The notes beneath the pieces are model-generated. The model made no database searches and was not told the DNA's origin. It worked only from the letters and a program-made list of their open reading frames with translations. From a virus, in IMG/VR virus record IMGVR_UViG_3300025133_000655, positions 1-22,158 of that record: DNA of 22,158 nt. The stretch is one strand, 5' to 3'. The position numbers were made by a program, and so were the translations under genes. Positions 10,959 through 16,421 of this stretch are shown piece after piece; the stretch's first letter is position 1; the number at the start of each line of letters is the position of its first letter.

Positions 10959-12440
10959 TTATGATATTTGCCAATCTACCGACGATAAATATTTTTTTGT
11001 GTGAGAAGGTTTAGATGATTTTTTAGTATGAAATGGTTTATATACGTTCTTATTCGCATAAAAAAAGCCATCCAACAGGTCATCATGCTTCCCTCTAGGG
11101 TACATTAACAACTCATCAATAAAAGCACGTTGATCTTTGTGGATATACACTCTCCCAGACGCAAATAAGGGTTGTAAGGACTCTAAACGATAGCTTTTTG
11201 ATGATCTTGGGTTTTCTTTAATCTCAACTCCAGGAATATATCTTTCTCTCCGAACATAATCGCGTAACATTTCTTGATACCCTACAGACTCAATCCTTGT
11301 TTTTGTCGCCTTATATTTATCATAATTTTTTATGATGGCATTTGCGAGGTCCATAGGCTTGACTCTTTTTCTGAAATACGGAAGACAAAACCGATTATCG
11401 TCTTTATCGACACCTACGTTGAATATTACAGAATAATCAGCACTATTAGACGTTGATGATGCAGGATCGACTCCAGTAAAAATATTTATAGGTCTACTTT
11501 CTTTTAATTCGACCCCTTCAAGCTCTGTTATCTCCAAATAAGCTTCTTTATCAGTTAATTTGACAGTCCCATCATAAAATTTAAAGTAATCTTCTACGAA
11601 TAGCTGATCTTCATCGCCTATAACTTGACATAAGCGTTCTTTATAGAATGAACTCACCCTTCCAATATCTTCGAGAGCTGCCTTTTCTTCTAATAGCTCC
11701 TTAACCGATTTCATGTCTGCCCATAGTGACGTAGTTACCCCATCTTCACCTTCGATTAGGTATGAATAATGCAAACTTTGCCACGTTTTCATGTCTTTTA
11801 GGGTCAATACGAGGCATCTTTGGTGTAATGGAGTACCAATTACCAACATTCTACCTCTTTGAGCATCAAGTGATGGGATCGCTGATTGTAAAGCCCATCT
11901 CAGATTCCCTTCCATAGCTTCAGATGTCTTTGTGTTGTTCTCATCTTCAGGATCATCGAGAATAATCAAAGATGGACGTTGCCCTCCAATATTTGTCCCC
12001 CTTAACTGCTGTCCCATCCCTTTACAGATGATGGCGGAGCCATCCTTTAGCACTATTTCAGTAGATGCCCACTTTTTAGCACTATGTTGTCCCCAATATC
12101 CGAATAATTGACGGAATTCAGTCCCATAATCAAGTGTATCCTTTATAGTTTGCAATAAGTTAATAGCATGCCCCTGTGTTCTTGATACAAGTACCACTAC
12201 TTTTTTACCTTCATCGAAGAAAATATGATGTAAGGGCTTCAAAATCCCTACAACCATTGACTTTGCGCTACCTCTAGGGGCAATTATATTAATAAATGTT
12301 TGTTCTTCGTTCTGTACAGCGTCCGCTATTTCTTGATGAAACTCTGGAGTATCTAAATGAAATACCTTCGGAAGAATAATTTTACCAAATAACAACAGAT
12401 TGCCACGAAGTTTATTTAATATTTTCGTTTTATCGCTCAA
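10959..12440 (-). CDS. terL: Terminase large subunit (TerL)
   Basis: The 493-residue protein is the DNA-packaging motor. The ATPase half has a Walker A-like motif APRGSAKS (residues 54-61), a Walker B SLIILDDPEDE (157-167) and a coupling-type IGTP motif (201-204). The RNase H-like nuclease half has TGVDPA (322-327, Asp325), an ESVGYQ segment (384-389) and HDDLLDG (452-458), giving the acidic residues that bind two metals. The start is TTG at 12438-12440, overlapping the stop of the 67-aa gene as TTGA; the first in-frame ATG would remove the Walker A motif, so TTG is needed. AGGGG lies about 8 bases upstream. It works with the portal, which is the next gene. Confidence 0.93.
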   Translation of the reverse strand: MSDKTKILNKLRGNLLLFGKIILPKVFHLDTPEFHQEIADAVQNEEQTFINIIAPRGSAKSMVVGILKPLHHIFFDEGKKVVVLVSRTQGHAINLLQTIKDTLDYGTEFRQLFGYWGQHSAKKWASTEIVLKDGSAIICKGMGQQLRGTNIGGQRPSLIILDDPEDENNTKTSEAMEGNLRWALQSAIPSLDAQRGRMLVIGTPLHQRCLVLTLKDMKTWQSLHYSYLIEGEDGVTTSLWADMKSVKELLEEKAALEDIGRVSSFYKERLCQVIGDEDQLFVEDYFKFYDGTVKLTDKEAYLEITELEGVELKESRPINIFTGVDPASSTSNSADYSVIFNVGVDKDDNRFCLPYFRKRVKPMDLANAIIKNYDKYKATKTRIESVGYQEMLRDYVRRERYIPGVEIKENPRSSKSYRLESLQPLFASGRVYIHKDQRAFIDELLMYPRGKHDDLLDGFFYANKNVYKPFHTKKSSKPSHTKKYLSSVDWQIS

Positions 12441-13397: not shown

Positions 13398-13566
13398 TGC
13401 CCATCCATATTTTTAATTAAAGTATTATGTATTATATACAATACATAAATAATACATATATAAAGATATTATTCCCCTAAAGGGAATAATATCTATCATA
13501 CTACGTATTAAATACATAGTATATATATATTATATATATATATAATACATATATCCATACGTGTCA
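13398..13566. repeat. AT-rich tract with 8-bp repeats (candidate origin)
   Basis: This 169-base stretch without a gene is nearly all A and T. It carries AATACATA four times in one orientation (13441, 13452, 13511, 13544) and once inverted (TATGTATT at 13426), a TA run at about 13519-13546 and a perfect 13-bp hairpin between the second and third copies. Repeats next to an AT-rich easily melted tract are the layout of iteron-type origins, but such words can arise by chance in AT-rich DNA. It also forms the leader of the TerS candidate gene and may hold promoters. Confidence 0.45.
13465..13495. terminator. Perfect 13-bp hairpin in the AT-rich tract
   Basis: AGATATTATTCCC (13465-13477) and GGGAATAATATCT (13483-13495) are perfectly complementary around the loop CTAAA. 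On the leftward strand it is followed by TTATATATG, giving a short T-rich tail, so it could end transcripts from the 65-aa gene. As a symmetric element it could equally be a protein-binding or origin structure. Confidence 0.5.
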
Positions 13567-13842: not shown

Positions 13843-13872
13843 ATTAAATCTCACTACATGGGTAATTATCAA
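13843..13872 (-). promoter_or_regulatory. Sigma70-like promoter candidate for the leftward block
   Basis: On the leftward strand TTGATA (13867-13872) is followed after 18 bases by TTTAAT (13843-13848), each matching 5 of 6 consensus positions. The predicted transcript would start near 13836 and give a leader of about 70 bases before the 65-aa gene. Its place in the divergent region between the two gene blocks supports the call; spacing and sequence are acceptable but not strong. Confidence 0.4.
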
Positions 13873-13942
13873 AAAAATATTATAGAATGCGTGCGGGTTA
13901 AATACATCAAACATACCCCCTGTAATTGAGGATTGCTATCTG

Positions 13943-14970: not shown

Positions 14971-14995
14971 GGGGTGTTTTTATAAAGAACACCCC
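14971..14995 (+). other. Inverted-repeat hairpin between small early genes
   Basis: GGGGTGTT (14971-14978) and AACACCCC (14988-14995) form an 8-bp perfect stem with a 9-base loop. It lies 28 bases after the 85-aa gene and about 28 bases before the next ATG. No U tract follows on the rightward strand, so an mRNA-processing or stability element is as likely as a terminator. Confidence 0.45.
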
Positions 14996-15023
14996 TAAAG
15001 GAAATAAGAAGGGAGTATTAATA

Positions 15024-15217: not shown

Positions 15218-15376
15218 GATATAGTTACTGCTGTGTGCGATATGGTAGCTAAGTTTGCAAGAGTGGAAGCTAAGATTGCCAGTTTGCAAGTTGAAGTAGC
15301 ACAAAAGATATTAGTGGAAGCTGATAGTCTTAGAGAAATGGCATCTCGCGACTTAGATAAAGAAGGAGAAGAATAA
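15173..15376 (+). CDS. Hypothetical 67-aa coiled protein (main part of the disrupted gene)
   Basis: From ATG at 15173 the product is MMVKEYNFKEYENDGDIVTA, followed by VCDMVAKFARVEAKIASLQV and a helical, heptad-like end (EVAQKILVEADSLREMASRD). It looks like a short coiled-coil protein. No ribosome binding site stands before this ATG, whereas a strong one precedes the ATG at 15115 in the other frame, so this frame is probably the body of the original gene, reached now only by re-initiation or not well expressed. The stop overlaps the next ATG as TAATG. No family recognised. Confidence 0.55.
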   Translation: MMVKEYNFKEYENDGDIVTAVCDMVAKFARVEAKIASLQVEVAQKILVEADSLREMASRDLDKEGEE

Positions 15377-15672
15377 TGTTAGAATTAATACCATTTATGT
15401 TTTTAGGTGTATTTATGTACGGTGCAACTATTCTAACGTATCATAAATATTGCGCGTACGTACAATACCATAACTATTTATGCGATGCTTGGAATTATAT
15501 GTATGAATATCCATTTAAAAAAGGTACTAACGGGATTCTGAAAGACTATAAAACACTTAACACTTGGCGTGTTGCTGTTTTACATAATGTTAGGACAGAT
15601 GATCTAATCAAGTTTATCGATAAAAGCTTCAAAGCTGGTCTCTCTGAAGTAATTAAAAAAGATGAGATATAA
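15376..15672 (+). CDS. Membrane-anchored hypothetical protein (98 aa)
   Basis: The N-terminus (MLELIPFMFLGVFMYGATIL) is a hydrophobic helix that should insert in the membrane, followed by an aromatic segment (YHKYCAYVQYHNYLCDAWNY) and a charged soluble part (WRVAVLHNVRTDDLIKFIDK, SFKAGLSEVIKKDEI). The start overlaps the previous stop by one base, so translation may be coupled; AGAAGGAGAAGA gives a ribosome binding site. The last 54 codons, the stop and 16 bases beyond are duplicated in tandem directly downstream. I do not recognise the family; an inner-membrane role early in infection is possible. Confidence 0.62.
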   Translation: MLELIPFMFLGVFMYGATILTYHKYCAYVQYHNYLCDAWNYMYEYPFKKGTNGILKDYKTLNTWRVAVLHNVRTDDLIKFIDKSFKAGLSEVIKKDEI

Positions 15673-15865
15673 AAGGTATTTATTATAACATTTAAAAAAG
15701 GTACTAACGGGATTCTGAAAGACTATAAAACACTTAACACTTGGCATGTTGCTGTTTTACATAATGTTAGGACAGATGATCTAATCAAGTTTATCGATAA
15801 AAGCTTCAAAGCTGGTCTCTCTGAAGTAATTAAAAAAGATGAGATATAAAAGGTATTTATTATAA
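15512..15865 (+). repeat. 177-bp tandem duplication of a gene's 3' end
   Basis: Copy 1 is 15512-15688 and copy 2 is 15689-15865. By eye they differ at one base (CTTGGCGTGTT in copy 1, CTTGGCATGTT in copy 2). The unit is exactly 59 codons long, includes the stop of the 98-aa gene and keeps the frame: after the first TAA the frame remains open to the second TAA, but no start codon lies at the head of copy 2. Copy 2 is thus untranslated unless the stop is read through. Confidence 0.93.
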
Positions 15866-15884
15866 TCCTCTTGACCTATGGATT

Positions 15885-16126
15885 CCCAGACTTAACTGGG
15901 CAATGTGATGTAGGCTTCGCCTGAAACATTAAACAAAGACATAAATACCATATTAAGGGTAGTTACGGCTAAAACCGCCATTTGTAGGGGTGTATATGAT
16001 GTTTATATGTTCATATAGGCTTCAAATGAACAGATGAACAATACTTTCACCCCTACTCGTTCGTTAATGTCTAAGGAGAAACTCATCTGGATGAGACGAA
16101 GACTAAGCGTGGTCTACCCTTAGTAT
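15885..16126 (+). ncRNA. Structured non-coding RNA / leader with long-range stem
   Basis: The 301 bases 15866-16166 have no convincing gene but many stems. In order: CCCAG/CTGGG (15885-15900); ATGT-AGGC/GCCT-ACAT (15908-15929); an outer 13-bp stem, ATATTAAGGGTAG (15950-15962) with CTACCCTTAGTAT (16114-16126), one G-U pair; GTAGGGGTG/CACCCCTAC (15984-15992 with 16048-16056); TGTTCAT (16008-16014) with either of two tandem ATGAACA copies (16026, 16034); and CTCAT/ATGAG around CTGG (16082-16095). A local hairpin ACTAAG/CTTAGT (16102-16124) uses the same bases as the right arm of the outer stem. A 13-codon frame with an AGGGGTG site starts at 15996. The gene at 16167 follows. No known family is matched. 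Confidence 0.55.
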
Positions 16127-16166
16127 CTCAAAAAGAAACCCACCAACCAATAAAAGGATAAATATT

Positions 16167-16421
16167 ATGACACAAAGTAAAGCTAATACGGAAAGTATAG
16201 AATTAAGCAGGATGCAAGATATGGGCATAGGAGATTTAGCAAATTGGCTAGTTAGAATGATAGAATTGAGCGATAAGCTAAAAACCAAAAGAGTGTTTAA
16301 AAAACATAGAATTAATCTTGACTGTAGGATTAATAAGGGATTAGGTATTCTTAAGGATAGATCGTTATGGAAGGACTATAAGTGGAGAAGAATGCTTAAC
16401 GTAACTCGCAACTGGAAATAA
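16167..16421 (+). CDS. Basic 84-aa hypothetical protein
   Basis: The protein has a polar start (MTQSKANTESIELSRMQDMG), a helical middle (IGDLANWLVRMIELSDKLKT) and a strongly basic end (KRVFKKHRINLDCRINKG, LWKDYKWRRMLNVTRNWK). The positive charge could allow nucleic-acid binding, which is inference. It follows the structured untranslated region, and its start context AAAGGATAAATATTATGACA closely resembles that of the gene at 14080 (AAAGGATATATTATGACA). It ends 10 bases before the next small gene. No family recognised. Confidence 0.68.
   Translation: MTQSKANTESIELSRMQDMGIGDLANWLVRMIELSDKLKTKRVFKKHRINLDCRINKGLGILKDRSLWKDYKWRRMLNVTRNWK

Follow-up and report, generated by a model that had tools for sequence, protein, structure and literature searches.

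A probable structured RNA upstream of early genes in an uncultured phage

A spacer on the plus strand of an uncultured phage sequence probably forms a real, RNA-level structure, judging from its predicted fold. We tentatively propose that positions 15866-16126 may be a structured untranslated leader RNA of an early transcript, acting in cis. If real, this would place a structured RNA of no known family among the early control sequences of uncultured phages that are still poorly characterized as a group.

Gene layout around the spacer

The window, the whole stretch of DNA that we analyzed, comprises the 22,158 bases of an IMG/VR virus record. No close named phage was found: matches to the terminase were about 25% identical and those to the portal were partial. 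The minus strand carries the structural genes (terminase at 10959-12440, portal and head), while the plus strand carries the early and replication genes (DUF932, Sak4-like and primase-helicase), and all annotated-type genes near the spacer lie on the plus strand from 14080 onward. Where the early region begins, the sequence AAAAAAATATTATAGAATGCGTG (13871-13893) is shared with the terminase relatives L013, L014, L016, L031, L048, L051 and L078, and this sequence conservation marks it as a probable early promoter and transcript start.

The spacer is followed on the plus strand by an orphan gene of 84 amino acids (16167-16421, preceded by AAAGGA), a 58-amino-acid gene and DUF932. The 84-residue product had no Pfam or PHROG match, and tblastn against phages gave none at E<=1. 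The replication genes lie downstream of the structured core, with the primase-helicase gene at a distance of about 3.2 kb. On its other side, the spacer adjoins the second copy (15689-15865, plus strand) of a 177-bp tandem duplication, whose first copy spans 15512-15688 with one mismatch. The duplicated unit is the 3' end of the gene at 15376-15672, and the second copy stops exactly at the spacer start. This duplication reflects either a recent event or an assembly effect.

Predicted fold, strand preference and coding signal

We folded the 301-nt region 15866-16166 with ViennaRNA and compared it with shuffled sequence, as a sequence-only reading of the window had suggested. The computed energy was -82.7 kcal/mol (z -4.2), and none of 100 shuffles was as good. 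For the core, 15946-16130, the minimum free energy was -62.7 kcal/mol (z -5.9, 0 of 300 shuffles as good). Of 490 windows of 180 nt across the contig, 25 reached z values of about -3.5 or lower, and some of these are coding or hold terminator hairpins. Thus, low energy by itself is no proof, and the energy evidence is strong, not unique. The lowest fold z among these windows belongs to the AT-rich interval 13398-13566, which separates minus-strand genes and contains a 14-bp hairpin at 13464-13494.

The predicted core fold (15950-16126, plus strand) comprises a 17-bp bulged outer stem which encloses three hairpins. The 5' arm of the outer stem (15950-15966, plus strand) contributes 13 + 4 pairs to the 3' arm (16109-16126, plus strand). 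The run of 13 pairs between 15950-15962 and 16114-16126, with one G-U, is present as had been read from the sequence and has a pair probability of 0.96, remaining at least 0.94 in a 720-nt context and at 10-37 C. Residues 16109-16112 pair at p 0.88 and 16113 is bulged. Taken alone, the 13-bp run is mildly unusual, since a run at least as long occurred in 9 of 200 shuffles (4.5%). Hairpin A (15967-15979, plus strand) is a small 3-bp element with p 0.74 at 37 C and 0.93 at 20 C. Hairpin B (15984-16056, plus strand, p 0.95-1.0) is built from 9 bp, a 7x7 internal loop, 7 bp, a 1x1 loop, 7 bp and an 11-nt terminal loop; it is the largest contributor to the core, with z -5.6 by itself (0 of 300 shuffles as good). 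Hairpin C (16057-16102, plus strand, helices p 0.51-0.95) adds little (z -0.6 alone). Most core helices have probabilities of at least 0.9 in the 301-nt fold, and the core helices are kept in the 720-nt context and at 10, 20 and 37 C. Two further plus-strand hairpins lie upstream, CCCAG/CTGGG at 15885-15900 (p 0.99) and TAGGC/GCCTG at 15911-15923 (p 0.90). Elsewhere, a hairpin GGGGTGT...ACACCCC at 14971-14996 has the arms GGGGTGT/CACCCCTA in common with hairpin B, which starts at 15984. The contig contains GGGGTG just three times.

The sequence-only reading had described a switch or a folded RNA before an orphan gene. The complementary pairings that it listed are present in the sequence, and a folded, probably new RNA at this place is supported by the folding statistics, the strand preference and the non-coding character of the spacer. 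The switch is not, since the alternatives are thermodynamically negligible. ACTAAG (16102-16107) and CTTAGT (16119-16124) both exist, and the competing hairpin that they were thought to form has a mean pair probability of 9e-5 when the 301 nt are folded, falling to about 0 once more flanking sequence is included. Similarly, the two tandem ATGAACA copies, at 16026 and 16034, both lie in hairpin B, and TGTTCAT was not found to choose between them: TGTTCAT at 16008 pairs with the first copy (p 0.98) and TGTTTAT at 16000 with the second (p 0.95). TGTTTAT-A-TGTTCAT opposite ATGAACA-G-ATGAACA therefore forms a single continuous arm which lengthens one hairpin. We rejected a two-state riboswitch-like element, there being no mutually exclusive structures of comparable stability. 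Sequestration of the ribosome-binding site was likewise set aside: its pairing with 15866-15869 in the 301-nt fold is gone in wider context, and translational control is thus unsupported.

The strands were then compared. The minus strand of the core folds at -51.7 kcal/mol (z -3.8), against the plus-strand values given above, and the mirrored plus fold reaches just -44.3 on the minus strand. G-U pairs account for 8 of the 60 pairs in the plus fold of the core, more than on the minus strand. Better folding of the plus strand together with more G-U pairs favors an RNA over a DNA palindrome. The minus strand of the whole region nevertheless reached z -4.9, and folding as single-stranded DNA was good as well (z -5.0).

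The absence of a convincing gene in this stretch was also upheld. No protein frame of at least 40 amino acids lies within the spacer under table 11 or with TGA read as W, and the computed codon-usage scores of all six spacer frames are at most 0.04, in the off-frame range, versus 0.13-0.37 for genes. An 82-residue frame exists only with TAG read as Q; it was rejected, with a non-coding score of 0.03 and no convincing family, and TAG serves as a stop in this contig. Two short leader peptides, at 15996 (13 residues) and 16091 (MRRRLSVVYP, with AAGGAG at 12-nt distance), gained no further support. A promoter-like TATAAT at 15861-15866 was given no weight because such sites are rarer than in shuffles. 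No terminator-like site was found on the plus strand from 15866 to 16167, so read-through into the 84-residue gene is expected.

Relatives of the spacer RNA and of the terminase

As the sequence-only reading had supposed, the RNA matches no family in Rfam 15: none reached the gathering threshold in the window, and the best sub-threshold matches were to unrelated snoRNA models at E>=1. The same search led us to reject group I introns as well as other known families, GOLLD and ROOL among them. Blastn of the RNA against phages returned nothing meaningful, and searches of IMG/VR, GTDB genomes, phage records and 80 terminase relatives yielded no homolog. R1, a covariance model built from the RNA as a single sequence, had no match in the 80 terminase loci, in 34 whole records or in further loci. 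The arm pattern of hairpin B occurs in 108 stretches of the viral contigs searched, tRNA acceptor stems accounting for many of these; by blastn or nhmmer no stretch looked like the RNA, and R1 was negative on those tested. The DUF932, 84-residue, primase-helicase and Sak4 proteins led to no close relatives in viral contigs, and primase-helicase and terminase led to none in genome contigs. The 80 terminase loci are mostly 56-60% identical, with one additional match at 100% (L002). This 6.2-kb contig, whose terminase protein is identical to that of the window, is the same species from another sample, and it stops short of the RNA.

The early-strand spacers of the terminase relatives fold strongly, and stable hairpins are generally plentiful in the early regions of these phages. 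Four of them share a non-coding element of about 400 nt, multi-branched and with a long-range stem, on the minus strand of each contig (L003:680-1090, L025:2443-2853, L061:5086-5501 and L081:5555-5961). Their alignment has 116 pairs, 26 with compensatory changes. In a 12-sequence domain, 96.8% of cells are paired and 19 of 36 pairs are doubly changed; shuffles give 86.5% paired cells, and sliding the partners gives 35.3% at most. By this covariation in sequence, the element is a real RNA. Two covariance models of it (R2, R3), together with a profile HMM, detected additional members that are more diverged, and a pattern scan found it in 15 contigs; the other carriers are L006, L017, L045, L057, L068, L077, L193, L196, L197 and L202-L205. 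At terminase-anchored loci, it lies on the early-gene strand 2.0-3.7 kb upstream of terminase, and it is often followed by a terminator hairpin with a T-run. Rfam gave no gathering-level match in the carriers tested (L003, L057, L061 and L077 among others), and in L061 a permissive threshold gave nothing beyond chance matches. The element has the look of a phage RNA family that has yet to be described. A separate non-coding stretch, L026:5513-5754 on the minus strand, holds a tRNA T-arm-like GGGTTCGAATCCC within a long hairpin.

The spacer RNA lies on the same strand, 3.4 kb upstream of terminase. However, it is clearly shorter, at about 180-260 nt, and lacks the hairpin and T-run found after several family members. 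Its best score at the site was 6.0 bits with R3 (E 3.1) and 6.2 bits with R2 (E 0.43, many pairs broken), and the profile HMM gave no match there. By these three models, the spacer RNA is not a member of the approximately 400-nt family.

Possible roles and described phage RNAs

We infer a transcript, and any function, from the computed structure and its position. The leader at 15866-16126 would sit upstream of the 84-residue, 58-residue and DUF932 genes on the early transcript, its core (15950-16126) would form one rigid fold and not a ligand-responsive or two-state switch, and transcription would run on past it into the 84-residue gene. It would then act in cis on its own transcript, influencing how the early mRNA is elongated, processed or stabilized, and its target would probably be the downstream orphan-DUF932 operon.

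It is somewhat unlikely that the RNA is instead a separate trans-acting molecule, a functional counterpart or extremely diverged form of the approximately 400-nt RNA. Strand, distance to terminase and the demonstrated covariation of that family speak for this; however, the spacer RNA matches none of the three family models, is shorter and has no terminal hairpin with T-run, and the variable distance to terminase leaves the slot loosely defined. We consider it unlikely, by a further step, that it is the first member of an undescribed family in that slot, where the structured RNAs of this phage group would be interchangeable.

Slightly less likely again is a functionless spacer folding by chance, or as a by-product, in a hairpin-rich early region. 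Stable hairpins are general in the relatives' early regions, the 13-bp run recurs in shuffles, and the adjoining recent duplication is a sign of local rearrangement, but the multi-helix fold lies far beyond all 300 shuffles and 300 nt of non-coding DNA has been kept in a compact phage. We regard as improbable a DNA-level element, such as a replication origin, a recombination or protein-binding site, with cruciform or single-stranded DNA hairpins. Its single-stranded DNA and minus-strand folding and the replication genes downstream are consistent with this, whereas the core prefers the plus strand and has G-U pairs, no iterons were noticed besides the two ATGAACA copies, and the primase-helicase gene is kilobases away. 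Of these readings, the cis-acting leader is the likeliest. Together with the relatives' RNA, the spacer RNA would, if real, suggest regular use of structured early RNAs by such phages.

The put element is located near the start of early transcripts; the spacer RNA, unlike it, follows the first early gene at a distance of 1.8 kb. HK022 put RNA is described as a structured nascent RNA element of phage early transcripts, and it offers a possible mode of action for the spacer RNA (PMC9378689). GOLLD and ROOL are large phage RNAs, structured and without an assigned function, often near tRNA islands, and GOLLD is often over 800 nt (PMC12286853). The spacer RNA is likewise of phage origin and predicted to be structured, but measures about 180-260 nt; the window contains neither a tRNA nor a tmRNA, and no Rfam model matched. 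Abundant non-coding RNAs have been described in phages and satellites (PMC7567579). The manA and wcaG motifs of cyanophages are structured RNA domains near genes in marine phages (PMC2864571). Unlike these, the spacer RNA is without an Rfam match and its next gene is an orphan; like them, it is a predicted structured domain near genes.
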